Origin: an uncultured Nitrospira sp. | GTDB taxonomy: Bacteria; Nitrospirota; Nitrospiria; Nitrospirales; Nitrospiraceae | Assembly (NCBI GenBank): GCA_902500785.1 | Contig: CABVRW010000007.1 | Span: 1 to 64,000 of the forward strand | Direction of reading: 5' to 3' | DNA length: 64,000 bases | Shown: positions 23,108 to 44,533 of the stretch, one piece after another | Layout of the letters: every line of letters begins with the position of its first letter | Numbering within the stretch: the first letter of the stretch is position 1 | Notes under the pieces: generated by a model | Told to the model about the DNA's origin: nothing | Seen by the model: the letters and a program-made list of their open reading frames with translations, nothing else | Databases searched by the model: none | Program-made: the position numbers and the translations under genes

Positions 23108-23185
23108 GGTGGGTGTAGCTCAGTTGGTTAGAGCGCCGGATTGTGGATCCGGAGGTCGCGGGTTCGAAACCCGTCACTCACCCCA
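23108..23185 (+). tRNA. tRNA-His (GTG anticodon)
   Basis: A full cloverleaf can be drawn. A 7-bp acceptor stem pairs GTGGGTG (23109-23115) with CACTCAC (23175-23181), and the histidine-specific extra G at 23108 pairs with C73. The anticodon stem is CCGGA/TCCGG with loop TTGTGGA and anticodon GTG at 23143-23145. The T-arm has GGTTCGAAACC-type sequence. CCA is encoded (23183-23185). It is followed at 34 bases by a PilZ gene. The G-1:C73 pair identifies it as tRNA-His. Confidence 0.97.
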
Positions 23186-23218
23186 ACGCTCCTAGAGACG
23201 AATTACTGGGGCAGGTAC

Positions 23219-23596
23219 ATGATGACCGGTGGCAATAAACAGGTCGCTCCGTTGGCCCCGCCTCGTCCGTCTGTCGCTGTCGGTGCCAGATTTCACGTGC
23301 GGTCGTTCCGTCGCTTTCCCGTCCAATGTTCCGTGTATTACTCCGGCAATGCGTTCCAGGGGACCGGTATCGCGTGGAACCTCTCCCTCAATGGATGGCG
23401 TGTTGATGGGACGCATCCGGTTGAGCCTGGAGCCGTCGTCACCCTCTGTGTCTTTCTTCCCGGTCAGCACCCCACCGTGTTTATCGACCGCGCGGTCGTT
23501 CGTTGGTCTCGAGGGCAGGAATTCGGGATTGAGGTGAATGCGATCAAAGCCGACGAGCGTGCTCGGCTCGAACAGTTCGTGACGGCCTTGGTCTGA
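23219..23596 (+). CDS. PilZ-domain protein 1
   Basis: This 125-residue protein contains a PilZ-type c-di-GMP-binding fold from about residue 25: an RSFRRFPVQCSVYYSG start (the RxxxR-like arginines), then GTGIAWNLSLNGWRVDG, the slot of the D/NxSxxG motif (here NLSLNG), and a closing strand LCVFLPG. The open frame reaches back into the tRNA, so the ATG at 23219 is preferred. The RRF and NLSxxG residues are the ones normally needed for c-di-GMP binding, so binding is plausible. It is the first of three similar genes in a row (23219-24679). Confidence 0.8.
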   Translation: MMTGGNKQVAPLAPPRPSVAVGARFHVRSFRRFPVQCSVYYSGNAFQGTGIAWNLSLNGWRVDGTHPVEPGAVVTLCVFLPGQHPTVFIDRAVVRWSRGQEFGIEVNAIKADERARLEQFVTALV

Positions 23597-23737
23597 CCGC
23601 TGCCTTCTCTCTCTTGCGAGGCTCGGCTGCCTCTATGACGAGAAAAAGAATATTCTTGGCCATCCCCTGAGAGTTGAGTAGACTGGGTCGTAGTTGAGGT
23701 CGATGCCGTGTCATACCCATCTTCCTAGCCAGGACTC

Positions 23738-24082
23738 ATGGCCAAGTCGCAAACATCTCGTTCGCATTCTCGCGTACCGGTCAGTTGCTTCCTCTATTAC
23801 CTGGGGGAAGGCCTGGTTGGAACGGGCAAGGTCTGCGACCTCTCCGTCAAGGGCTGGCGAATCGATGGGGATAAGCCGGTCGCGGTGGGTATGAAACTCA
23901 CGCTACGCGTTTTTTTGCCCGATCAGCCGAAGGCGATCGATGTCGATGGGGTGACGGTTCAGTGGGTGCAAGACCGTGTATTCGGACTTGAAACCGTCAG
24001 GTTGAGCGCCACCGCTGAAGCACGAATTCGCAAGTTTGTCGAGTCGGTGCTCAAGGCATCGGGCTCCTCCCGCGTCGCTTGA
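23738..24082 (+). CDS. PilZ-domain protein 2
   Basis: This 114-residue protein is nearly all PilZ domain. The N-terminus has HSRVPVSCFLYYLGEG, followed by GTGKVCDLSVKGWRIDG, in which DLSVKG is the D/NxSxxG motif, and LTLRVFLPDQP as the next strand pair. The first arginine pair is reduced (SRV instead of RRF), so c-di-GMP affinity may differ. It resembles the gene 23219-23596 closely in layout, which suggests tandem duplication. It ends 85 bases before the frame of the third copy opens. Confidence 0.8.
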   Translation: MAKSQTSRSHSRVPVSCFLYYLGEGLVGTGKVCDLSVKGWRIDGDKPVAVGMKLTLRVFLPDQPKAIDVDGVTVQWVQDRVFGLETVRLSATAEARIRKFVESVLKASGSSRVA

Positions 24083-24313
24083 GTCGCTGATGCTTCGTTG
24101 GTCGTCGTTCGGCCATCGGATCGAGCCTGATTTCGGATTCTCCCTGTCCTCTGTCCTTTCCCTGTCATGCTTAGTCAGACCCTCACGCTGCGCCCGCTGT
24201 CTGTTGTGACCGGGACAGATGTGATCAGCTCATCGAGGTGCCCCCACTTTCGGGGACTATCGGGCTATCCGTTGTTTTTCATATCCTGCCGAGGCGTTGG
24301 CTTGGAGGAATGG

Positions 24314-24679
24314 ATGGAACAACAGCATCGTCCGCGCTTTATCGTCGAGTGTACCGGATCACGTTCCGAGGATGGGCTTCTGGTTTGGAACGGCCGAATG
24401 CTGGATCTCTCGATCCCGGGATGGTCACGAACCGGACTCAAAGGTTTGCAAGCCGGGGATCTGCTTCAACTGCATCTGCATATTCCAGGACAGTCCAAGC
24501 CTCTCTCGGTGAGGCTAGCGACTATTCGCTGGGCCAGTGAGTCGCGACTAGGAGTCGATCCCATTCTCATGGATGCCGACGACCAACTTCGTTTGAACGA
24601 CTTTGTCAGCGCCCATGACACGATTCTTCCGTTCAGTACGGACGGTAAAGAACAGATCGTTATTTCCGACGCCGGATAA
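24314..24679 (+). CDS. PilZ-like protein 3 (diverged)
   Basis: The start at 24314 (121 residues) has GGAGG 5 bases upstream; the frame is open back to 24167 but the extra 49 residues look random. The protein begins EQQHRPRFIVECTG and carries MLDLSIPGWSRTG, in which DLSIPG aligns with the D/NxSxxG motif of its neighbours, then LQLHLHIPGQSKPL, which matches the LPG/LPD strand. The N-terminal arginine pair is weak (RPRF). It is therefore a diverged third member of the tandem set and may have lost c-di-GMP binding. Confidence 0.6.
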   Translation: MEQQHRPRFIVECTGSRSEDGLLVWNGRMLDLSIPGWSRTGLKGLQAGDLLQLHLHIPGQSKPLSVRLATIRWASESRLGVDPILMDADDQLRLNDFVSAHDTILPFSTDGKEQIVISDAG

Positions 24680-28806: not shown

Positions 28807-31800
28807 GTGCGATCCGACAAGAAATCTTCCCTCAAATCCGATAAGAAATCCTCCCCGAAGGTCCAGAAGAAGGGGACCATCGGCTTCAACAAGAAGTCGG
28901 CGCTTCTCGAAGATGCGATTACACAAATGAACGCCGGCAAGTATGGTCGGGCGTCTTCCGCGTTGAAAGATCTGCTCGCCCTCGATCCGCTCAATACCGA
29001 AGCTCGGCGCCTATTCGCCACGCTCCATCTGCGGCTCGGCAGTCTCATGAGTGCCAGGACGGCGTTCGAATCGCTGGCTCTGGAAGCGATGGAGCGGCAG
29101 GATTACTGGCTGGCGGAGTCGCTCTTGCGGGAATACCTGACGGCGGGACCACGTTGTGTTCCTTTCTTGGAAATGCTGGGGCGTGTCTATGAAGACAAGG
29201 GCGACGTCATGGCGGCGGTGGCTGAGTACGGCAAGGCCGTCGAGGTCTTGCTGGAAGACCCGGACATCGATAATCCGAACCGACCCAGTGACCTCTTCGC
29301 ACGGATTCGCTCCATTGCCCCTGGGAGTCCGGTTGCCTTCCGCTTTGCAACCATGTTCGACACGGTGACCGGGCAGGTCTTGCAGGCGACGCCTCATCCT
29401 GCCGTAGTCGCGACCAAGAGCGAGACGCCTCCAGCCTCGGCATTGCCGGTTTCGCCTTCCGCTACGGACCCAACGGCGGCAATGCCATGGGAACAGGTGG
29501 AGACGACCTCGAGCGAGGTTTCCCTCGAACAAGACGCGCAGGTTTCGGCACCGGCGCAGTCGCCCGAGCCCATGGACTCAGGCGCGCGGCAGGACGATAC
29601 AGGGGGGGGAACGGAAGCCACACGGGAGGCAGACTCGTCCCCGGAGTTGAACGTTCAATTTCAAGCCGAGTCTTCATTGTCCGCGGTGACTCCGATGATT
29701 GAGGCGGTTCAGGTCACCAGTCAGAGTGAACCGCCTGCCATCGATTCGGTTCCTGCCCCGCTCGCAGACGCAGAAATACCTTCTGCGCCGACCGTCGAAG
29801 TGCTTTCTCTCACGAGTGAGGTGTCGGCACAAACCGGTAGCTGGCCGATTGCCGACGCACCGATGGGCCCGGCGCCCATGCCGTGGGACCAAATAGAAGA
29901 TGCCGCCACGGTGATTCTCCCGCGGGCGGAGGAGCCAGTGTCGATCCACGGGGACGTAGAAACGATGCCTTCCCCCGAAGAGGTCGAACTCCCGCCACCA
30001 GCGTCGGAGCCGATAGCTCCCCCGCTCCTGGTCCTCCCGCAGGCTAGTAGTCATCCGATCGCCGACCCGCCGGCAATCCACGCCCCGATGCCCTGGGACC
30101 AGGTTGAAGAGGCCACGAACCCCATGACGCCAGCCGCCGAGACAGTGTTGGAGGTGGGAACGGTCGAGGTCGGCCAGGCGAGCGAGTCTCCGGCAGCGAA
30201 GCAAGTGCTCGATACAGGGTCGATAACGGAGCCACCCCCCGTAGCACGCCCTTCCGAAACCACCTCGTCGGGACTCACGTGGGAGGAAATTCTCGCGGCG
30301 GTGTCGGCCATGCAATCATCCACGGTGTCTCCTCAGACGCTTTCAAGCGGGGGGCAAGACCTTGATCCTGGGGAGTTGGCCGAAACCCGCCTGGTTCCTC
30401 CGGATTCTATAGAGACAGGGTCACCGCTGTGTGAGGCTACGGTGTCGGACGCTCTGTCTGATCTCGCCGGTACGGCACCATCCCTGTCGGCTCCCATGCC
30501 ATGGGAGCAAATCGAAGTTGACGACGTCACGATTCCGCGCCAAGAACCTGAGCCTGATTTCGGTCCAGTCCCTGCCGCGGTTGTCGTGGATGCGCAGGAT
30601 TCCACAGTAGTCATGCCCGTTGTGCCCGAGGCGCCTGAGGCAACGGCTGCTGCAGAATCTCCTGCAGCTGACACGGTGGCCGATCGTTCTGTAGAGATGA
30701 ACGCCACTGCCGTCTCGGAATTCCGCATTCTCTCTCCAGATGCTCCCATCCACGCGCGCCGACATTCCAGTCATATTCCCGTGGAAGCGTACAACATAGC
30801 CGAGGAGTCGACCCCGGCCGCCGTGCCTGAGCCCGAACAACCGGCCGGAATCACGACCGATCATCCTGTGGAGCTTCCGTTGCGCCTGGCCGACAGTGAA
30901 TCGGTCGCGACCACAACTTCGGTTGGGCCATCTCCTGCTTCGGTCGAACCAGTTACGGATTTCGCGATTGCCGACGACAACGATGTGCCGTCGCCGGCGT
31001 TGAAAGAGGGCGGCCAAGCGGAGAGTCAGGTCCCTATCAGCGAGTCCGTAGTGGTCGTGTCCTCGGATCCATCTCCTCTGATGGACCAGCCTGCGGAGGC
31101 TATCTCCCCGCAGCAGGTCAAGACGCAGTCAGTACCAGAGGCGGTAGCGGAGGGCCTTGCCCCGGTGGTCGAGCCATCGCTCATCGATGATCAGCCGGTT
31201 GCACTATTGTCACCGACTGCTCTCGATGCCGCACCTGTACTGGAGTCGGAGATGGCGCTGGTGGATCCAGAGCTCTCCTCGGCGTCAACTGGCGAGGCCT
31301 ATGACGCTGGCGATGTTCCGATGGGTGAACCCGTTGTTCCCCCGCTGGAGGCATCGTTCACCCCGGCAGTCGCCTCTCCGCAGCCGGCTTCTCCGTCGAG
31401 CAGTGCGTCAGTGGAAGAACCGGTATTACCCACGGTTGAGGCGGCGCAGGATCAGGAGGCGGTCCCGGCAAGAGATCTTGTGGAGGTACCAGCTGACTCT
31501 CCAGCTTCTCCCGAAGAACCGGCGACAATCCTAGGGACCTCGGCTGCTCCTGCTTCCGACGCGAGTGGGGGGCTGCGAATTCTGTGGGATGACTCGTCGT
31601 CAAAGCCTACCCCAAGCGTCTCCACTGGAAACATGCTGACACGCTGGCTCAGAAAGCCGGCGGATATCGTTCCTGCTGAAGCAGGCGAGGCGAGTTCCTC
31701 GATGACGGTTCCAGCTGAACCGCCGGCACCTCTCCCCTCGTGGCCTGTTGAGCGACAGGAGGCCGCGGTCGTCGTGACGGACCGTCCTCTCGATCCACCG

Positions 31801-33315
31801 GAGCGTTCTGCGCCTCTGTCCATGGAAGCGCCTGTCGATCGCCCTCAACCGAGCCGGCCTGCCGTGGCCCCTGCGTGGCGTCAAGTCGGGGAGGCGATCG
31901 CTTCGCTTCTCGGTGCCGGGGTGTCGACGACGCGCTCGCTGGTCGTCTTGCTTCTGGCATTGGTCGGGCTCGCGCTGGTCCTGAGCGCCGGGGCGGTCTG
32001 TGCAGTGGCATTGACCTGGCTGGTTCTAGAGGAGCAACCCAGTGCGGCGTATCGCAACGTGACGTCGGTTCCACAACATACCTTGGAGGATTCCAGCAAG
32101 AATGGATACTTCCTCCTTCTTGGATTCGGTGCTCCGGCGACCCAAGACCCAGTGCAGGCCGGGATGGACCGACGGGCCGAGGGTGCCGATCGTGTGTTTG
32201 CCCACACCTGCCTGACCGGAGACGGACAGGCGTCCGGTGGTGAACAGAGTGCATCGGCTGAAACGGTGGGCAAGTGGATGAAGACCTCCGATCCGGCGGC
32301 GCAGATGCGCGTGGAAGCGACTGGCGTGAAGGCGTGGGTGGCGCAGGCCGAGGTCAGTATGGGCCGATACCGGCAGTGGCTGGCCAAGCCTTTTGAAGAC
32401 TGGGGGTACGGGCAATCCATCACTCCCAACTGCGGCCTGATTCTTTCAGCCCATCGACTGTATGTCGCGGAGGGGTTCGCGCAGGATGTCGACGCGGGAG
32501 TCGCGCGGCTTGAATCCGATCTCACAGCATGGCGGACGGTGTTGGGACAGGCCAAGACGCTGTCAGTGAAAATGCTGGCCAGTACTGCGATGAATGACGA
32601 CGTCAGGGTGGTGGGAGGGCTCTTGTTGCGGCCTGAACTCGACGAGCGATTCGTGAGCCGCTTGGCCAAACTCGCGCGGCCGCTTGAACAGGCTGAACAG
32701 TCGGTCCGTTGGCCGATGCAGAGCCAGTTCGTGTTGGCCACCAAGACGTTGGAGGAGACGATGAGTGAAGGCGGTGGTGAGGATCGCCCATTGTATGGCT
32801 CACTCCTAGCGGCGCTGCCGTTGCCGAAGCAGCGTCGGTTCAATGCCTATGCGCAATATTATGAGGCCGCCGGAAAGGCCGCCGGGGAAGGTCGGTATGC
32901 AGACTTGCCCAAGCAGTCTCAGTTTGTGCACGCTCCGCCCTATGGTCTGGGGGACATAGTTGTAAATCCTATTGAGAGCCTGGTCGGGGTTGCTCCCCTT
33001 CCGACATGGGAAACGTACGCGGGTCGAGTGTTGGAGACGGATGCACGCTTGCGGCTGGCGTCCCTGCAGGCCTGGTTGCGCCGGACTCCGCCGGAACAGG
33101 ATCTGCTCACCAGGATTGCCAAGGCCGGGCAAGGCGTCTACGATCCCTTCACGGGTTTCCCGATGCTCGTGAATATGAAGAAGGGCGTCCTCTATAGTGT
33201 CGGCCAGGACCTGAAGGACAATGAAGCGCAGGACCGGTTCGATCTCGTGGCGCCGATCCCTTCGTCCGCATGGGTGGAGGGCAAACGACCTGACGACGTG
33301 GACAAACTCAAATAA
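28807..33315 (+). CDS. Giant TPR / low-complexity / transmembrane protein of unknown function
   Basis: This 1502-residue protein begins at a GTG with only a weak TAGG 8 bases upstream. A lysine-rich tip (KKSSLKSDKKSSPK) leads into a TPR-like helical region (about 30-150). A very long Pro/Ala/Glu/Val-rich segment (about 200-1010) follows, with four copies of PMPW[ED]Q[IV]E at residues 226, 358, 428 and 564 (the first is AMPWEQVE). One transmembrane helix (about 1043-1070) precedes a C-terminal globular domain (about 1080-1502) rich in Trp/Tyr/Arg pairs. No enzyme motif is seen. The layout suggests an envelope-spanning scaffold, with TPR on one side and the C-terminal domain on the other. The gene is a single, long unit. 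Confidence 0.8.
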   Translation: MRSDKKSSLKSDKKSSPKVQKKGTIGFNKKSALLEDAITQMNAGKYGRASSALKDLLALDPLNTEARRLFATLHLRLGSLMSARTAFESLALEAMERQDYWLAESLLREYLTAGPRCVPFLEMLGRVYEDKGDVMAAVAEYGKAVEVLLEDPDIDNPNRPSDLFARIRSIAPGSPVAFRFATMFDTVTGQVLQATPHPAVVATKSETPPASALPVSPSATDPTAAMPWEQVETTSSEVSLEQDAQVSAPAQSPEPMDSGARQDDTGGGTEATREADSSPELNVQFQAESSLSAVTPMIEAVQVTSQSEPPAIDSVPAPLADAEIPSAPTVEVLSLTSEVSAQTGSWPIADAPMGPAPMPWDQIEDAATVILPRAEEPVSIHGDVETMPSPEEVELPPPASEPIAPPLLVLPQASSHPIADPPAIHAPMPWDQVEEATNPMTPAAETVLEVGTVEVGQASESPAAKQVLDTGSITEPPPVARPSETTSSGLTWEEILAAVSAMQSSTVSPQTLSSGGQDLDPGELAETRLVPPDSIETGSPLCEATVSDALSDLAGTAPSLSAPMPWEQIEVDDVTIPRQEPEPDFGPVPAAVVVDAQDSTVVMPVVPEAPEATAAAESPAADTVADRSVEMNATAVSEFRILSPDAPIHARRHSSHIPVEAYNIAEESTPAAVPEPEQPAGITTDHPVELPLRLADSESVATTTSVGPSPASVEPVTDFAIADDNDVPSPALKEGGQAESQVPISESVVVVSSDPSPLMDQPAEAISPQQVKTQSVPEAVAEGLAPVVEPSLIDDQPVALLSPTALDAAPVLESEMALVDPELSSASTGEAYDAGDVPMGEPVVPPLEASFTPAVASPQPASPSSSASVEEPVLPTVEAAQDQEAVPARDLVEVPADSPASPEEPATILGTSAAPASDASGGLRILWDDSSSKPTPSVSTGNMLTRWLRKPADIVPAEAGEASSSMTVPAEPPAPLPSWPVERQEAAVVVTDRPLDPPERSAPLSMEAPVDRPQPSRPAVAPAWRQVGEAIASLLGAGVSTTRSLVVLLLALVGLALVLSAGAVCAVALTWLVLEEQPSAAYRNVTSVPQHTLEDSSKNGYFLLLGFGAPATQDPVQAGMDRRAEGADRVFAHTCLTGDGQASGGEQSASAETVGKWMKTSDPAAQMRVEATGVKAWVAQAEVSMGRYRQWLAKPFEDWGYGQSITPNCGLILSAHRLYVAEGFAQDVDAGVARLESDLTAWRTVLGQAKTLSVKMLASTAMNDDVRVVGGLLLRPELDERFVSRLAKLARPLEQAEQSVRWPMQSQFVLATKTLEETMSEGGGEDRPLYGSLLAALPLPKQRRFNAYAQYYEAAGKAAGEGRYADLPKQSQFVHAPPYGLGDIVVNPIESLVGVAPLPTWETYAGRVLETDARLRLASLQAWLRRTPPEQDLLTRIAKAGQGVYDPFTGFPMLVNMKKGVLYSVGQDLKDNEAQDRFDLVAPIPSSAWVEGKRPDDVDKLK

Positions 33316-35586: not shown

Positions 35587-36564
35587 CTAGCCGGTACGGA
35601 TTTCGGTTCCCGAGTCGGAAGCCTCCGTCCTCCGGTGGTCTTTCACATAGACGCTGCCGGGTCGGCTCTTGGCGACCTTCTTCAATTCCGAAGCGATCTT
35701 GCTGACGTCGCCTGGGTGGGAGATGGTGCACTGTTCATTGGTGACCACGGCGATGGACAGGCTCATGATGGGAAATCTCTCGTGGTTGCCGCGACGATCG
35801 ATGGAGTCGATATACCCGGCCTGCCGATCCGCTGGGTCGTAGAAATCCGGGATGACCAGATCGAATCGCTTGATGAGGGTCTGGCAGATCGCATCGATGC
35901 TGGAAGGGTCGCTCATAAACACAAAATCGTCTCCGCCCACATGCCCCACGAACCCATCGATGCCGGTCAGTTCGCTGACCACGGTCGTGAGGATTCTGCA
36001 CGTGACCACGAGCACTTCATCGCCTCGGGCATAGCCGTATCGGTCATTGAAAGATTTGAAGTTATCGATATCAAGATAGGCCAGGGCGAAAGAGGCCCGA
36101 CTTTCGATGCGCGCCGTCGTTTCGTGAAGAATGGTGCTGTTGCCGGGGAGCCTGGTGAGGGGATTGGCATCCAGGGAGCGCTCCAGTCGGCTGAGGCAGA
36201 GGCGCACCCGTTGCGGCACTTCGTTGGGTCGGTAGGGCACCGCAATATAGTCGTCCACGCCGAGCGTCGCCCAATCCAAATCGTTGACCCGGATATCCCG
36301 CACCAGGATGATCAGCGGCAGTCGTCCCAAAAATGGGTCGGCGCGCATGTCTCGAGCCAGCGTATCTGCCGAGCGGCCGTTCGTGCCTTCGGCAGCCAGG
36401 ACGAGACAGGGCGGATCATGCACCAGTTCGTGCATGACCAAGTGCCCGGGATCCGCCGCCACCACCGCGAATCCGGAGCGCGTGAGGCCGGCCGTCAACC
36501 GCTCGATCTCGAGCGGGTCGCTGTGCAGCAACAGAATGCGCCGGTTGGAAGAAGGCCCGCTCAT
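35587..36564 (-). CDS. GGDEF-domain diguanylate cyclase with a degenerate receiver
   Basis: This 325-residue protein starts at the ATG that overlaps the HDOD stop (ATGA). The N-terminal domain (about 8-130) has the receiver pattern (RRILLLHSDPLEIERL to YIAVPYRPNEV), but the phosphate-acceptor Asp position reads CLVLAAEG, so phosphorylation as in CheY is unlikely. The C-terminal GGDEF domain (about 155-305) has ALAYLDIDNFKSFND for metal binding and the signature HVGGDDF, which is a conservative variant. An RxxD inhibitory site is not obvious. It likely makes c-di-GMP from GTP, and it could act on the PilZ proteins elsewhere in the genome. Confidence 0.9.
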   Translation of the reverse strand: MSGPSSNRRILLLHSDPLEIERLTAGLTRSGFAVVAADPGHLVMHELVHDPPCLVLAAEGTNGRSADTLARDMRADPFLGRLPLIILVRDIRVNDLDWATLGVDDYIAVPYRPNEVPQRVRLCLSRLERSLDANPLTRLPGNSTILHETTARIESRASFALAYLDIDNFKSFNDRYGYARGDEVLVVTCRILTTVVSELTGIDGFVGHVGGDDFVFMSDPSSIDAICQTLIKRFDLVIPDFYDPADRQAGYIDSIDRRGNHERFPIMSLSIAVVTNEQCTISHPGDVSKIASELKKVAKSRPGSVYVKDHRRTEASDSGTEIRTG

Positions 36565-37397
36565 AAGTAATCGTCGATAGTCTGAAATTCTTCCGTGGCT
36601 TGGGCGAGGCACTGGGCGAGACTCTGCGCGTCCAGGCCCACCAGATCCCAGGCCTGCCGAGAAAGCGGCGGGACCAGGTTATCCCCGGGGTTGCCGCAGG
36701 CCAGGCCCTTCACCAGCACATCAGCGACATGCACGATGGACGTTTGGAGCTTCGCGTCCTGGGCCGCCGTGGGGGTGTGGTGATGAAGAATGGGCTCGCG
36801 CAGACTGGTCGGCAGATGCCAGGCGCTCGCGAGCCATCCTCCGACATCGGCATGAGTCACCTCGAACAACTCTCGCTCCGTGTCCATGAGGGGCCGGGAC
36901 GTCCCCCTGGTGGCGGATGTAATCTCTCGGCCGACATCGGGCCATTTGACATACAGCACCACCTTGCCCAGGTCGTGCAGGAGCCCGGCGACAAACACTT
37001 CCTCGGGATTTTTCATCGCCGCTTTCGTCCCCAGAATGTGCGCGGTGATCGCGACGCCCAGCGAATGACGCCAGAGGTCGTTCATGCCGGCGTTGCGCAT
37101 CATGTCGAAGGCGGTCGCGCAGAGTGTGAGGCCTTTTACGACGTTCAAGCCCAGCACCACCACCGCGTGGGCGACCGACGCGATACGCGAGGGAAAGCCG
37201 TAAAACGGCGAGTTGGCCAGCCGCAAGACTTTGGCGGACAGCACTTGGTCTTTTTCGATCAGCGTGCCGATCTCTTCCGCCGACACATTGGGGCGGCCGA
37301 TCATTGAGGCGAGCTTCTGGACGACATGCGGAAGGGTCGGTAACTCACCGACTTGTTCGATTCGCCGCCGCAGATCCACTTTTCCTGAAGGATTCAT
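36561..37397 (-). CDS. HDOD-domain signalling protein
   Basis: This 278-residue HDOD protein (HD-related output domain) spans almost its whole length: LPTLPHVVQKLASMIG, KVLRLANSPFYGFPSRI, and GLNVVKGLTLCATAFDMM, with a conserved-looking GLLHDLGK (about residues 138-145). The HD pair is kept in LLHDLGK, unlike many HDOD proteins that lack metal ligands, so phosphohydrolase activity cannot be excluded. It overlaps its neighbours by 4 bases on both sides, so it is translationally coupled in the operon. Confidence 0.88.
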   Translation of the reverse strand: MNPSGKVDLRRRIEQVGELPTLPHVVQKLASMIGRPNVSAEEIGTLIEKDQVLSAKVLRLANSPFYGFPSRIASVAHAVVVLGLNVVKGLTLCATAFDMMRNAGMNDLWRHSLGVAITAHILGTKAAMKNPEEVFVAGLLHDLGKVVLYVKWPDVGREITSATRGTSRPLMDTERELFEVTHADVGGWLASAWHLPTSLREPILHHHTPTAAQDAKLQTSIVHVADVLVKGLACGNPGDNLVPPLSRQAWDLVGLDAQSLAQCLAQATEEFQTIDDYL

Positions 37398-37729
37398 GTT
37401 GATGGCGCCGGTTTCGGATCGTCGGCGATTCCCTGCCGGTTCCGGAGGTGGAGACGAATCGCCTCACGAAGTTGGCATTGAATCGGATCGTGGGCCACCA
37501 ATCGAAAGCGGTGGTCGAGTTCGGCCTCCAGTTCGTCGAGGGTTTTGCCGCTCGTGTCACCTGCGTCTCCCTCGACATAGACGGACGTCAAGCCGAGGCG
37601 CTGCAATCGGGAAAGGGTCGCGTTGTCCAACTCGGCGCCGACGGGAAGCACCACCAACCCGGCACTGTTGGCGACCGCTTTGGCGAGGATCATGCCGGGC
37701 GTGAGTTCTTCGATCACCACTCGTTTCAT
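37394..37729 (-). CDS. Small conserved protein related to HD-GYP N-terminal regions
   Basis: This 111-residue protein starts MKRVVIEELTPGMILAKAV, then has VVLPVGAELDNATLSRLQRLGLTSVYVEGD. That GMILAK...LP.GA.L...RL..LG...V.V pattern is the short region often found in front of HD-GYP phosphodiesterases. Here it stands alone and is the first gene of the three-gene operon. Its product may bind the HDOD protein or contribute a regulatory domain to it. It has no enzyme motif. Confidence 0.7.
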   Translation of the reverse strand: MKRVVIEELTPGMILAKAVANSAGLVVLPVGAELDNATLSRLQRLGLTSVYVEGDAGDTSGKTLDELEAELDHRFRLVAHDPIQCQLREAIRLHLRNRQGIADDPKPAPST

Positions 37730-39482: not shown

Positions 39483-40166
39483 ATGAAGTGTGAGATTTTG
39501 TATCCCGGTGCATTTCCGATGGTGCGTGTGTATTTGAACGAAGCCGAGACGGTGAAGGCCGAATCCGGTGCCATGGTGGCGGCGTCGCCGACGATCGACA
39601 TTGAGAGCAAGATGGAGGGCGGCTTCCTCGGAGCGTTGTCGCGGAAGATGCTGAGCGGTGAAAAGTTTTTCTTTCAAACGCTGCGGGCCAGCCGCGGAGC
39701 GGGAGAGGTGCTTTTGGCCCCGACGGTACCAGGCGAGATCGTGCTGTTGGACCTCGACGGCGTGAATGAATACATGGTGCAGAAGGATGGATTTCTGGCC
39801 GGCGCGGAGGGTGTGAAGATCGAAAGCAAGATGCAAAGTTTCACGCGGGGGTTACTGGGCGGGGAAGGGTTTTTTATTCTGAAAATCGGCGGGAGCGGTC
39901 AGCTGATCCTCAACAGTTTCGGCGCGATTCATAAAATCGAGCTCAAACCGAATGAAGAGTATATCGTCGACAACAGCCATCTGGTCGCCTGGACTTCCAC
40001 CACCACGTACAATATCGAAAAGGCTTCCTCCGGCTGGATCGCCAGCCTGACGTCGGGTGAAGGGCTGGTGTGCCGTTTTCGTGGCCCCGGCGTCGTCTAC
40101 ATCCAAAGCCGAAATCCCGGCAGCTTTGGGAATTGGATCAGACAATTCATCCCGGTGTCGGAATAG
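39483..40166 (+). CDS. AIM24 / TIGR00266 family protein
   Basis: This 227-residue protein has the AIM24 pattern: EILYPGAFPMVRVYLNEAET, then ESGAMVAASPTIDIESKM, GGFLGALSRKMLSGEKFFF and the closing WTSTTTYNIEKASS. These proteins form a beta-helical or twisted beta-sandwich fold whose function is unknown (in yeast a mitochondrial inner-membrane relative helps cristae organisation). A good ribosome site AAGGAGG lies 10 bases before the ATG. It follows the amidohydrolase by 30 bases and may be in the same operon. Confidence 0.9.
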   Translation: MKCEILYPGAFPMVRVYLNEAETVKAESGAMVAASPTIDIESKMEGGFLGALSRKMLSGEKFFFQTLRASRGAGEVLLAPTVPGEIVLLDLDGVNEYMVQKDGFLAGAEGVKIESKMQSFTRGLLGGEGFFILKIGGSGQLILNSFGAIHKIELKPNEEYIVDNSHLVAWTSTTTYNIEKASSGWIASLTSGEGLVCRFRGPGVVYIQSRNPGSFGNWIRQFIPVSE

Positions 40167-40171
40167 CGGCT

Positions 40172-40286
40172 GGTGAAAATGCTCGTGCACTTCGTTCTCG
40201 GCTCACGACAAATCCTCAACGTACCCCCGAGGGTACGCTTCCGGTTTGCGTTCACCTGCGGCCTCGTTCACAACCATTTTGATCAG
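40172..40286. repeat. Palindromic intergenic repeat, copy 2
   Basis: This is a near-complete copy. Its central hairpin is perfect over 7 bp (CGTACCC/GGGTACG at 40220-40237, loop CCGA). Outer arms are imperfect (AAAATG near the start, CATTTT near the end). It shares CTTCGTTCTCG, CTGCGGCCTCG and CCATTTTGA with 1-95. It lies between AIM24 and the M48 peptidase. Confidence 0.65.
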
Positions 40287-40303
40287 CCTCAAGATCGCAT
40301 CCG

Positions 40304-41437
40304 ATGAACCTAGCCTCCAACGCTCTTTGCTTCGGTGATGGCTTGCCGGCGACCGGCGCGCCTTGCCATGTCACGGTGTCGGCAGATGGCCTGCGCATGG
40401 GACCGGTCAAGGGTTCACAGCTCAGCGAAGAATCCGTGGCCTTTGTCGGCATGTCGGTCACGGCCGGGGGGTTGGATCATGATCAGTTGGTGGTGTCGTG
40501 GGGAGGGGGCACCTCGGCCCGGACGGTCTATCTAAAAGAACCCGCCCTGATCATTGCCTTCCGTCGCGCGGCTCCGCCTACGTTGCTGGCGCATCTTGAG
40601 CGGGCGGCTGAGCAGGTGCGGCGTGCGCGCCACAGCCATCGGGCCTGGTGGGGCAGCGCCGTGGGAGTGGTGGTCGGATTGGGGCTGCTGCTGTGGTTCG
40701 GCTCCGATCTGATCATCGAATGGGCGGTCGCCAGGATTCCCGTCCAGTGGGAACAGACGCTCGGCGAAACGGTCTACCAGGACTTCTTGTCCAAGGAAAC
40801 GGTGCTCAAGGAAGGTCCGGCCGTCAGTGCGGTTCAAGAAATGACCCAGCGCATGACGGCTCAGATTCCCAACAACCCCTACACGTTCCGGGTGTCGGTG
40901 GTGCAGAGCCCGGTCGTGAATGCCTTCGCGTTGCCTGGAGGCTATGTCGTGGTGTTCACTGGTTTGATGAAAAAGGCGGAGAGCGGCGAAGAAGTCGCGG
41001 GAGTGTTGAGTCATGAATTGAACCATGTGTTGCAGCGACATGGGATGGAACGCATGGTGAAAATGCTGGGGTTAGCCGCGGTGGTGAGCATTCTGTCAGG
41101 CGATCAGCAGGGCCTCATCGGGCTGGCCAGGCAGCTGGGTTTGGAGTTGGCCACGTTGAAGTTCGGCCGTGAACAGGAGTCGGAGGCGGATGTCACAGGC
41201 ATTCGGCTCCTGTCTGACGCACGCATCGCGCCGGACGGCATGATTCATTTTTTTGAACGTCTTTCGGAAACAGATCAGGCCCGTGTGGAGCTCTTCTCCA
41301 CCCATCCGATGAGTGCGGATCGTGCGAAACGGTTGAACGCGGAATTAGCGGCGTTGCCAAAACAGACTCCCGAACCGTTCACCTTTGACTGGAAGACCGT
41401 CCAGAATTCGTTGCCCGCGTCTGAGCCAAAGAAATAA
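40304..41437 (+). CDS. M48-family zinc metallopeptidase
   Basis: This 377-residue peptidase has one membrane helix at about residues 120-137 (AVGVVVGLGLLLWFGSDLI) and the zinc signature HELNH (in VLSHELNHVLQRHG, about residue 235), with a third ligand Glu in EQESEADVTG (about residue 289). The first 100 residues form a beta-rich unit that is not recognised. M48 relatives such as HtpX and BepA clean up misfolded proteins in the membrane or periplasm. The stop codon overlaps the ATG of the phosphoesterase gene (TAATG), so the two are co-translated. Confidence 0.9.
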   Translation: MNLASNALCFGDGLPATGAPCHVTVSADGLRMGPVKGSQLSEESVAFVGMSVTAGGLDHDQLVVSWGGGTSARTVYLKEPALIIAFRRAAPPTLLAHLERAAEQVRRARHSHRAWWGSAVGVVVGLGLLLWFGSDLIIEWAVARIPVQWEQTLGETVYQDFLSKETVLKEGPAVSAVQEMTQRMTAQIPNNPYTFRVSVVQSPVVNAFALPGGYVVVFTGLMKKAESGEEVAGVLSHELNHVLQRHGMERMVKMLGLAAVVSILSGDQQGLIGLARQLGLELATLKFGREQESEADVTGIRLLSDARIAPDGMIHFFERLSETDQARVELFSTHPMSADRAKRLNAELAALPKQTPEPFTFDWKTVQNSLPASEPKK

Positions 41438-41937
41438 TGCTGGGGGAGGAGATGCGCATCGGGGTGGTCTCGGATACGCATGGATTGTTTGATCCGGCGA
41501 TCGCTCGACACTTGGCCGGAGTCGATCACATTTTCCACGCCGGAGATATCGGCCACAGCGATGTCGTCGAGCAGCTTGTCAGGATTGCTCCAGTCACAGC
41601 CGTATCCGGCAACGTGGATGGATTCGAGGCGAGCGGGTTTCCTGTGGAGCAAGTAATCGAATTGGCGGGTCATCGGGTTGCCGTGTATCACCGGCTGTAT
41701 GAAGGGGGCCGGCTCACGCGCGCCGGTGCCGAGTTCCTCGCGCGCACGCGCCCATCTATCTGTGTGTATGGGCATACCCACCAGCCGAAGGTCGAGTGGA
41801 AGGATGGAGTGTTGCTGTTCAATCCCGGCTCTGCCGGACCGAAACGGTTTCACCTGCCGCGCGCCATCGGCATATTGCTGTTCAGCAATGACACGGTCGA
41901 GCCGAAGCACATCATGTTGGCCGATCGGGCGGAATGA
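41437..41937 (+). CDS. YfcE/MJ0936-type metallophosphoesterase
   Basis: This 166-residue protein has the calcineurin-like set of metal motifs: GVVSDTHG (about residues 8-15), HAGDIGH, SGNVDG, and YGHTHQP (about 108-114). It is the compact phosphodiesterase class whose members hydrolyse artificial phosphodiesters and some c-di-nucleotides. The start is the ATG overlapping the M48 stop; ATG at 41452 is an equally good N-terminus because the family often begins at MRIGVV, and the GGGGGAGGAG before it is too close to be a perfect site. Confidence 0.88.
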   Translation: MLGEEMRIGVVSDTHGLFDPAIARHLAGVDHIFHAGDIGHSDVVEQLVRIAPVTAVSGNVDGFEASGFPVEQVIELAGHRVAVYHRLYEGGRLTRAGAEFLARTRPSICVYGHTHQPKVEWKDGVLLFNPGSAGPKRFHLPRAIGILLFSNDTVEPKHIMLADRAE

Positions 41938-41966
41938 CGGGCGCAGGCGAACGCGGGATTTTTTGC

Positions 41967-41995
41967 TCTACATGACCGAGAGCGTTGGCTATAAT
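41967..41995 (+). promoter_or_regulatory. Promoter for the DUF3015 gene
   Basis: TCTACA (41967-41972) and a perfect TATAAT (41990-41995) are separated by 17 bases. Transcription would start near 42002, giving a 64-base leader that ends in the strong GGAGGAGG site of the next gene. Confidence 0.45.
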
Positions 41996-42065
41996 GCGGG
42001 AGGTTCTTATATCAATGGGTAGTCGATCGGGCGGAGTCATTCACTTGTTTAAAGGAGGAGGACTT

Positions 42066-42575
42066 ATGCTGAGACAAGTTATCGTCGCGTTGGGTGTGGT
42101 CGCGGTTGTGTCACAGGCCGGGCTGGCCATGGCCGCCAATCCTGATACCGGACCAGGTTGTGGTCTGGGGAAGTTGGCGTGGGCGGATTATAAGAATCAG
42201 AAGAACATCGCGCCGCAGGTCATGATGGCCACCACCAACGGCACGTTTGGGAGCGGTACGTTCGGCATCAGCTCCGGAACGTCGGGCTGCACGAACGATG
42301 GACAGGTCATGGCGGATCAGAAGACCACGATGTTTGCGCTGTTGAACTTTGAGAATTTGACCCAAGAGATGGCGCAGGGAAAGGGTGAGCATTTGGCCTC
42401 CTTAGCTGCGCTGATGGGGATTCCGGACGAGCAGCACCCGGCGTTTTTCGCCTTGACTCAAGAGCGTTATACGGCGATGGTTCAAGCAGGTGAAACCTCG
42501 TCGGTCGCCTTAGTGAAGACGTTGAATGACGCGGTTTCCAAGAGCCCCGTCCTCGCCCAAGTCGTCAACCGCTAA
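42066..42575 (+). CDS. DUF3015-family exported protein
   Basis: This 169-residue protein has a signal peptide (about residues 1-23, cleavage after AMA) and the DUF3015 order: GPGCGLGKLAWADYKNQK, APQVMMATTNGTFGSGTF, a C-x-N-DGQ motif, then a helical half (FENLTQEMAQGKGEHLASL). It starts with GGAGGAGGAC a few bases before the ATG, the best ribosome site in the window. DUF3015 proteins are periplasmic or outer-membrane proteins of unknown role; a DUF4105 gene follows them in several Gram-negative bacteria and follows here. Confidence 0.9.
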   Translation: MLRQVIVALGVVAVVSQAGLAMAANPDTGPGCGLGKLAWADYKNQKNIAPQVMMATTNGTFGSGTFGISSGTSGCTNDGQVMADQKTTMFALLNFENLTQEMAQGKGEHLASLAALMGIPDEQHPAFFALTQERYTAMVQAGETSSVALVKTLNDAVSKSPVLAQVVNR

Positions 42576-42577
42576 TT

Positions 42578-44533
42578 ATGTCAGGGCTCCGGTCAATGAC
42601 CGGGGCCCTGTTCTCTGCTCCGTTTCCGATCGTGCACATCCTATCGTTCCTGCTGGTCGGTCTTTTCCTGGCGACCCCTGTCGCGGCGGAAGACGCATCC
42701 ACGTCGTATCTGTCGCAACTCCTTCAACAGGCTCGCCGGGATCAATTGGCTGATGCGCGTGACTGGCATCTCCTGCTGCACTATCGCGCCAATCTGTTCG
42801 GCGGCTATACGAGTGAGCAGGATGACCCCGGATTCTTTCTTGCGCCGGACGGCAAAACCGATCCCCAAGCAGAACTCGATGCGACGCTGAGACAGTTTTT
42901 TTCGTCAGATCTCGTCGGTCGCTCCAAGCAACCGGCGCAATGCGCGTTTGTCGCGCGGTATGCCTGGCTGACGGAGCGTCTGAACGTTGATCCGACTCGG
43001 CTCTCTCCCATGGGCTGCGCGCGGTTCGAGCGTTGGATCGAAGAGTTTCATGCCCGATCCATCACGCTCGTCTTCCCGTCGGCCTTCATGAACAATCCGG
43101 CCTCGATGTTCGGCCATACCTTGCTACGGGTCGATCAGGAAGGGCAGACGCCGCAGACCCGCATTCTGGCCTATACCATCAATTACGCGGCTGATGTGCC
43201 GCCCGAGGAAGGCCTCGCCTATCCTGTGCGCGGCATTTTCGGCAGCTATCGAGGCTATTTCTCGACCATTCCCTATTACCTGAAGGTGCAGGAATACCGG
43301 GACATTGAAAATCGCGACATCTGGGAATACCGGCTGAATTTTGACGAGCGACAGATCCGCCGGCTCCTCATGCATGCCTGGGAACTCGGCAATGCCTCGT
43401 TTGATTATTTTTTCTTCAAGGAGAATTGCTCCTACCACTTGTTGTCGTTGTTGGAATATGCGGACCCGTCGCTGCATCTGACCGATCAGTTTCTGTTCTG
43501 GACCGTTCCGGCCGACACCGTTCGACTGCTCGCGGCCCAGCCTGGTTTGGTCAGCGATATCGCATTTCGTCCCTCCCGCGTGACACTCATTCGCCGCAAG
43601 CGCGAGCTGCTGTCGGAATCCGAACAGGGGCTGGTGAAGCGCTTGGTGCGTGATGCTTCGGCCAGTCAGTCGGAAGAGGTGCGAGCGTTGCCGTTGCCCC
43701 GGCAAGCGTTCGTGCTGGATGTGGCCTCCGACTATGTGCGTTATACCGGCGAACGTGACGAGGACCTGGCTGTCGTTTCGAGAGAGCGGAACCGGCAGAT
43801 TTTGACCGCACGGAGTCTGTTGCGGATTCCCTCGAAAGATCTCACGATTCTCCCGTTCGCCATGCAGCCTGAGCTGGGCCACAAGACATCCCGCGTGACG
43901 GTGGGCGGTGGTTGGCGCAATGACGACACCTTTGAAGAGCTCAGCGTGCGGGCCGGCTACCATGATCTACTCGATCCTGAGCCGGGATACACGCCGAATG
44001 CGCAGATTGAGCTCGGGTCGATCAGCCTGCGGCACTACAACCGGGCCGATCAGACGCGGATCGAACGGGCCACCTTGGTAAATGTGTTGTCGCTGTCACC
44101 GATCGACAATCTGTTTTACGCGCCATCATGGAAATTGAACGTGGGGATGCAGACGATCACGCATCGTGGATGCCGACTGTGCAGCAACGGGCTGTTCAAC
44201 GGCGGGATCGGTGCTGCAACCGAAACGCATTTGCTTCGTCGTGAGGTCTGGTTCGCGTTTGCCGAAGTGGAGGGGAACTACAGCCGGGCCTATGAGGAGC
44301 GGCATCGTGTCGGAGGGGGTGCGTCGGTAGGGCTCTATGCCGACCTCGCCGAGCGGTGGCGGCTATTGGCCTCGACCAGTTACTTGCGGTATGCGTTGGG
44401 GGATCGATCCGACGATGTTCGTTGGTCGGTGGGGCAGCGGTATACGCTCGCGCAGAATTGGGCGCTTCGCTTGGAGTATAGCCATCGCGACGATGACAAC
44501 GATGTGCTGTTCACCGTGCAGGCGTTCTTTTAG
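42578..44533 (+). CDS. DUF4105-domain exported protein, probably outer-membrane anchored
   Basis: This protein of up to 651 residues starts 2 bases after the DUF3015 stop; a GTG at 42632 would give a cleaner signal peptide (about 20 residues ending in AAEDAS). The first half is the DUF4105 (Lnb N-terminal) region: FPSAFMNNPASMFGHTLLRVD, then TINYAADVPPEEGLAYP, and FFFKENCSYHLLSLLEY, with the conserved His, Asn, Cys and His residues of this papain-like fold. The second half (about 420-651) is strand-rich with alternating hydrophobic residues and ends in Phe, like a beta-barrel. No enzymatic role is established. It belongs with the DUF3015 gene in one unit. Confidence 0.85.
   Translation: MSGLRSMTGALFSAPFPIVHILSFLLVGLFLATPVAAEDASTSYLSQLLQQARRDQLADARDWHLLLHYRANLFGGYTSEQDDPGFFLAPDGKTDPQAELDATLRQFFSSDLVGRSKQPAQCAFVARYAWLTERLNVDPTRLSPMGCARFERWIEEFHARSITLVFPSAFMNNPASMFGHTLLRVDQEGQTPQTRILAYTINYAADVPPEEGLAYPVRGIFGSYRGYFSTIPYYLKVQEYRDIENRDIWEYRLNFDERQIRRLLMHAWELGNASFDYFFFKENCSYHLLSLLEYADPSLHLTDQFLFWTVPADTVRLLAAQPGLVSDIAFRPSRVTLIRRKRELLSESEQGLVKRLVRDASASQSEEVRALPLPRQAFVLDVASDYVRYTGERDEDLAVVSRERNRQILTARSLLRIPSKDLTILPFAMQPELGHKTSRVTVGGGWRNDDTFEELSVRAGYHDLLDPEPGYTPNAQIELGSISLRHYNRADQTRIERATLVNVLSLSPIDNLFYAPSWKLNVGMQTITHRGCRLCSNGLFNGGIGAATETHLLRREVWFAFAEVEGNYSRAYEERHRVGGGASVGLYADLAERWRLLASTSYLRYALGDRSDDVRWSVGQRYTLAQNWALRLEYSHRDDDNDVLFTVQAFF
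42582..42610 (+). terminator. Hairpin between DUF3015 and DUF4105 genes
   Basis: A 13-bp stem with one T-G wobble (CAGGGCTCCGGTC / GACCGGGGCCCTG, loop AAT) starts 6 bases after the DUF3015 stop. TTCTCT follows, so it has a weak U-run. It overlaps the longest DUF4105 start (42578), and so may act as a partial terminator or attenuator, or block that ribosome site. Confidence 0.5.

Follow-up and report, generated by a model that had tools for sequence, protein, structure and literature searches.

A giant Nitrospira-family protein with selected tryptophan motifs in its disordered linker, and a possible role as a membrane scaffold

Introduction

What might a bacterium do with a membrane protein of 1502 amino acids whose long low-complexity linker repeats one short tryptophan-containing motif (the W-motif) four times? 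Such a protein is encoded in a 64,000-nucleotide stretch of DNA from an uncultured Nitrospira, which we will call the window. A preliminary description of the locus proposed that the motif is a docking site and that the protein is a scaffold that crosses the inner membrane and recruits a partner four times. A search of the literature for this protein, which we will call the giant, returned nothing relevant, and the giant did not match any of the PADLOC profiles for anti-phage defense. As an observation, the preliminary description is confirmed, with small corrections. Its interpretation is partly supported: the docking motif and the scaffold hold up as likely readings, and the fixed fourfold arrangement does not.

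Results

Architecture of the giant protein

The features of the locus are listed in Table 1. The 1502-residue frame is a genuine gene, and its start is supported by comparison: most orthologues keep the valine, in a frame that opens 0-3 codons upstream of the GTG. Full-length orthologues have lengths of about 960-1745 amino acids. The relatives within the genus include FP929003.1 (‘Candidatus Nitrospira defluvii’).

Table 1. The giant protein, its parts, and a conserved gene group downstream. Coordinates are positions in the window.
Feature	Coordinates	Strand	Remarks
Giant TPR / acidic linker / TM / C-domain gene	28807..33315	+	1502 aa, GTG start
Basic N-terminal tail, residues 1-27	28807..28887	+	Net +7, K-rich, conserved in family
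TPR domain, residues 27-181	28885..29349	+	Pfam match; AF2 confidence >90 for most
Disordered acidic P/A/S/V/E linker, residues 197-1020	29395..31866	+	Composition, AF2, charge
Motif copy 1, AMPWEQVE, residues 225-232	29479..29502	+	Fixed distance to TPR domain
Motif copy 2, PMPWDQIE, residues 357-364	29875..29898	+	
Motif copy 3, PMPWDQVE, residues 427-434	30085..30108	+	~70 residues past copy 2
Related island SSGLTWEEILAAVSAMQ, residues 487-503	30265..30315	+	Predicted helix, conserved
Motif copy 4, PMPWEQIE, residues 563-570	30493..30516	+	
Conserved linker island GLRILWDDSSSKPTPSVSTGNMLTRWLRKPA, residues 922-952	31570..31662	+	
Single membrane helix, residues 1043-1070	31933..32016	+	Hydropathy
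All-alpha C-domain, residues 1078-1502	32038..33312	+	Probably extracytoplasmic; conserved Cys1135, Cys1209
AIM24, M48 peptidase, calcineurin-like phosphoesterase, DUF3015 genes	39483..42575	+	Downstream of giant in genera compared; context alone

The N-terminus had been called TPR-like. It matches PF13432 above the curated cut-off (37.6 bits; cut-off 32.7) as well as PF14559 (27.1 bits; cut-off 25), and AF2 predicts helix pairs across residues 27-181 with high confidence. Only this N-terminal domain belongs to the TPR superfamily. It is also the most conserved part of the giant.

The roughly 800 residues that had been described as rich in proline, alanine, glutamate, and valine are indeed so (P 15%, A 14%, S 12%, V 10%, E 10%), with a net charge of -108 and a pI of 4.05. 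Three of the four motif copies, which had all been reported as PMPW, fit PMPW[DE]Q[IV]E, but the first reads AMPW; the reported spacings of 132, 70, and 136 residues are correct, but the start residues were off by one. The rest of the linker had been considered random. It also carries several conserved islands, mostly centered on tryptophan, so the linker is not random. These include SSGL[ST]W[ED][ED]ILAAV and ILW[DE]D...GNMLTRW, neither of which had been listed before. In other genera, GFSW[EN]S[VI]F occupies a position comparable to that of the island at 487-503. Amid predicted disorder, AF2 places short helices at 359-362 and 429-432 (copies 2 and 3) and at 492-504. The helix on the related island, WEEILAAVSAMQ, scores better than those on copies 2 and 3. 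Over the motifs, this single-chain prediction, which includes the TPR domain, has low confidence (block means of about 56-65).

There is one hydropathy peak, over residues 1041-1070, which agrees with the single membrane crossing proposed previously. Beyond it lies the predicted globular domain: AlphaFold gives a fold (pLDDT 85.6, pTM 0.86) that is all-alpha apart from a small beta element close to the C-terminus. The preliminary description recognized no known family here, and we likewise found no match for this C-domain in Pfam or NCBIfam, nor among PDB sequences using a profile built from 24 sequences. Fold searches returned only generic helical-repeat folds (Foldseek E >= 0.4, VIA Z <= 7.4), which exclude nothing. 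An enzyme identity for the C-domain finds no support, as neither profiles nor sequences gave a match and none of the fold matches was convincing. The C-domain defines a previously undescribed domain family.

Distribution and history of the gene

Of 61 genomes, 36 contain orthologues or paralogues that share parts of the giant; these all belong to a single family (f1), and none of the 24 genomes from sister families of the order contained giant-related sequence. A profile search with the C-domain across 296 genomes of the phylum had hits in 77 of them; 75 belong to f1, and the other two (G099 and G111, from another Nitrospirota family) contain remote homologues. The giant is apparently restricted to the nitrite-oxidizing Nitrospira family.

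Some of the homologues are not giants. Other genera of the Nitrospira family encode stand-alone C-domain proteins of ~466-540 amino acids, in which a homologous C-domain follows an N-terminal helix that resembles a signal anchor. These share several signatures with the giant (NGY..LLGF, PFED.G, ETDARLRL, and DPFTG.PM...YSVG.D), but unlike the giant, they have no TPR domain, no linker, and no cysteine pair. In a tree of C-domains, the giants form one clade (support 100/99), the stand-alone proteins branch outside it, and the homologues from the other family form a distant group.

The TPR domain has a relative in the window's own genome (G000). The middle TPR block of G000:C35, a protein of ~633 amino acids, is a homologue of the giant's residues 30-248, with which it shares 36% identity (E = 1.6e-32). 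In contrast to the giant, this protein looks soluble, has several TPR blocks, and lacks the W-motif, the membrane helix, and the C-domain. LptF/LptG and LpxD-like genes are nearby. The simplest reading of these relationships is that the giant arose long ago and only once, when a TPR block became fused to a membrane-anchored domain that was already there.

The homologues also bear on topology. The giant's C-domain has exactly two cysteines, 70-76 residues apart, in 94 of 94 giants (some are near-duplicates), while the pair is absent from the five stand-alone homologues compared. The spacing would fit a periplasmic disulfide. Because the cysteine pair is specific to giants, the stand-alone proteins begin with a signal-anchor-like helix, and the TPR end has no signal-like segment, we infer that the C-domain lies in the periplasm, where it may be held by a disulfide, and that the TPR domain and linker lie in the cytoplasm.

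The W-motif is under selection

Chance does not account for the motif. When we shuffled the linker 20,000 times, MPW[DE]Q[IV] never appeared, versus 4 occurrences in the actual sequence. We also searched the 3.9 Mb genome for the corresponding DNA pattern, ATGCCNTGGGANCAR: all four matches lie within the giant's gene, and the reversed control had none. Across 29 genomes of the genus, nearly all matches to the pattern are inside the giant's gene. We also rejected the idea that the proteome uses the motif more widely, as the remaining matches to the DNA pattern are single, scattered, and not far above the reversed-pattern control.

The motif persists while the linker drifts, which was the main test that the preliminary description had set: 78 of 83 orthologues keep it at 1-5 copies, and the rest of the linker is poorly alignable. 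Its number and spacing are not conserved. Most orthologues have one copy (29) or two (19); others have three (4), four (12), five (14), or none (5). Spacing ranges from 50 to >400 residues, although 68-74 recurs within the genus. Given this variability, four copies are not essential, and the idea that the protein recruits its partner four times is not supported in that form. Copy 1 is the only one whose distance to the TPR domain is nearly fixed in almost all orthologues; measured from the AESLL anchor, it is usually 113-133 residues. The tryptophan of copy 1, W228, is invariant in 44 of 44 aligned sequences.

The codons show how strong the constraint is. Copy 4 encodes PMPWEQ in 26 of 26 genus genomes, which among them use all four proline codons, both glutamate codons, and both glutamine codons. 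Between G000 and other members of the genus, non-synonymous change in the motif codons is 3-9% in most pairs (0% for G020, a close relative, and 19% for G004), whereas the linker differs by 48-63% (by 15% in the pair with G020). For instance, relative to G001, G013, and G012, the motif differs by 3-9% and the linker by 55-60%. Synonymous change in the motif codons is ordinary, at 25-31%. Since these codons change synonymously but hardly otherwise, selection must be acting on the short peptide. By the codon comparison, the constraint on the motif equals that on the TPR domain. We conclude that PMPW[DE]Q[VI]E is a well-supported short linear motif, within a protein whose architecture is new and specific to the family.

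Among the five orthologues with no copies, one (L100) lacks a normal start and another (L146) has degenerate copies. The motif is absent altogether from the other three (L112, L122, and G036), which implies that it is dispensable in some lineages. L112 (973 amino acids) and L122 (961 amino acids) have shortened linkers: the MPW motifs and the FSW island are gone, while the TPR domain, membrane helix, and C-domain remain. These two proteins amount to a natural deletion experiment.

Genomic neighborhood

Downstream of the giant, the order of the genes for AIM24, the M48 peptidase, the phosphoesterase, DUF3015, and Lnb_N/DUF7840 (39483-44533, + strand) is kept across genera. The AIM24 proteins compared are 78-98% identical to the one from the window.

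On the - strand of the window (35587-37729), a trio of genes encodes a GGDEF protein, an HDOD protein, and a protein of 111 amino acids. In most genomes of the genus, 3-8 kb separate this trio from the giant. In G033 and related g6 genomes, the trio is just upstream of the giant; elsewhere, it is missing. We considered these neighbors as the obligatory partner of the motif and rejected them, since they are missing from many genomes that bear it; for instance, G029, G030, G229, and G196, among others, have the motif but no HDOD orthologue.

The window also contains three consecutive small genes for PilZ domains (23141-24679, + strand), which encode proteins of 151, 114, and 170 amino acids. The third scores just below the Pfam cut-off.

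The stand-alone C-domain genes have different surroundings. In L053, L056, L059, L062, and L064, they adjoin a cluster encoding a periplasmic binding protein, FecCD, ABC components, and a TonB receptor, and in L056, the cluster includes CobA/CobB-type genes. It is possible that the stand-alone protein is an unstudied accessory of cobalamin uptake. In the window's genus, the uptake cluster is present and the stand-alone paralogue is absent.

Comparison with HubP and FimV

HubP and FimV are polar landmark proteins of Vibrio, Shewanella, and Pseudomonas with acidic tethers (pI 3.5-3.75) (PMC12918733). The giant resembles them in having one membrane helix, a long acidic unstructured tether with short helical segments, a TPR domain, and an envelope-side domain, if the tether and TPR domain are on the cytoplasmic side as we propose. 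The repeats of HubP vary in number between relatives, as do the giant's motif copies, but they are long and acidic, whereas the giant's repeat has just 8 residues. The order of the parts is mirrored: the giant's TPR domain is N-terminal and its C-terminus has another fold, so it does not have the C-terminal TPR domain of FimV. A Pfam scan of the whole giant found no LysM domain, while HubP and FimV have an N-terminal periplasmic LysM-like domain. A search of the genome for FimV_core was uninformative (no control genome matched). We found no sequence relation between the giant and HubP or FimV. Given the reversed order, the lack of a LysM match, and the lack of a sequence relation, the giant is not a member of this family; it is best read as an unrelated analog.

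Discussion

A proposed role as a membrane hub

We lean toward the view that the giant is a single-pass scaffold or hub in the inner membrane whose W-motifs dock a cytoplasmic partner. The all-alpha domain, probably periplasmic and held by a disulfide, would anchor or sense something in the envelope, while the TPR domain and the ~820-residue acidic disordered tether would sit in the cytoplasm. The tether would present [AV]MPWEQ beside the TPR domain, 0-4 more copies of APMPW[DE]Q[VI]E, and the related island GLSWEEIL. These may offer several docking sites in parallel, each of which would adopt a short helical turn upon binding, and so draw a putative cytoplasmic partner to the membrane; extra copies would increase valency. 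Copies are probably gained or lost as units of ~70 residues. That the motif is a docking site, as first suggested, is a fair reading of the selection on it and of the helical turns predicted amid disorder.

Another explanation is that the receptor is the giant's own TPR domain, in cis or between molecules, so that the tether folds back or the molecules chain into a homotypic lattice at the membrane. TPR grooves bind short acidic peptides, and here the most conserved domain and the motif occur in one protein, with copy 1 at its nearly fixed distance, while the motif occurs almost nowhere else in the genome. But the motif-less L112 and L122 retain a good TPR domain (72-84% identity to those of close motif-bearing relatives), so the TPR domain must be retained for something besides the motif, and the joint loss of motif and TPR domain that self-docking might predict is not seen. 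The low confidence that AF2 assigns to the motifs, in a chain that includes the TPR domain, also argues against it. We consider self-docking less likely than a foreign partner, above all as the sole role of the TPR domain, but a serious alternative.

A role in envelope transport is less probable still. On this account, the C-domain would cooperate with an importer of the ABC or TonB kind (cobalamin-like), and the cytoplasmic part would have been added for regulation. The uptake clusters beside the stand-alone paralogues, in the genera that we read, are consistent with this. But the window's genus retains such a cluster with no stand-alone paralogue, and the giant adjoins the AIM24, M48, phosphoesterase, and DUF3015 genes instead. 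Finally, we give almost no credence to the motif copies being functionless leftovers of a recent tandem duplication of ~70-residue low-complexity units: despite the recurring 68-74 residue spacing and the varying copy number within the genus, the copies differ in synonymous codons and have little DNA in common around them, the motif survives while the remainder of the unit diverges, and it is present across genera at different spacings. Shuffling and codon analysis together led us to reject chance or a duplication artefact as the motif's origin.

Returning to the hub, we tentatively suggest a more specific version, which may well be wrong: that the giant is a lineage-specific organizer of Nitrospira, formed by the fusion of a TPR block and a membrane-anchored alpha-domain, that recruits a dedicated partner via a tunable array of 1-5 motif copies and evolved independently of HubP and FimV.

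Eukaryotes are well known for disordered tethers that carry conserved, countable short linear motifs; to our knowledge, such motifs have rarely been documented in bacteria. Because this motif occurs in one host gene, has a natural copy number of 0-5, and is under selection at the codon level, recruitment and valency are directly testable. Nitrospira are central to nitrification and their cell biology is little described. The giant marks an apparently family-specific component of their envelope, and its C-domain defines a new domain family that is probably extracytoplasmic.
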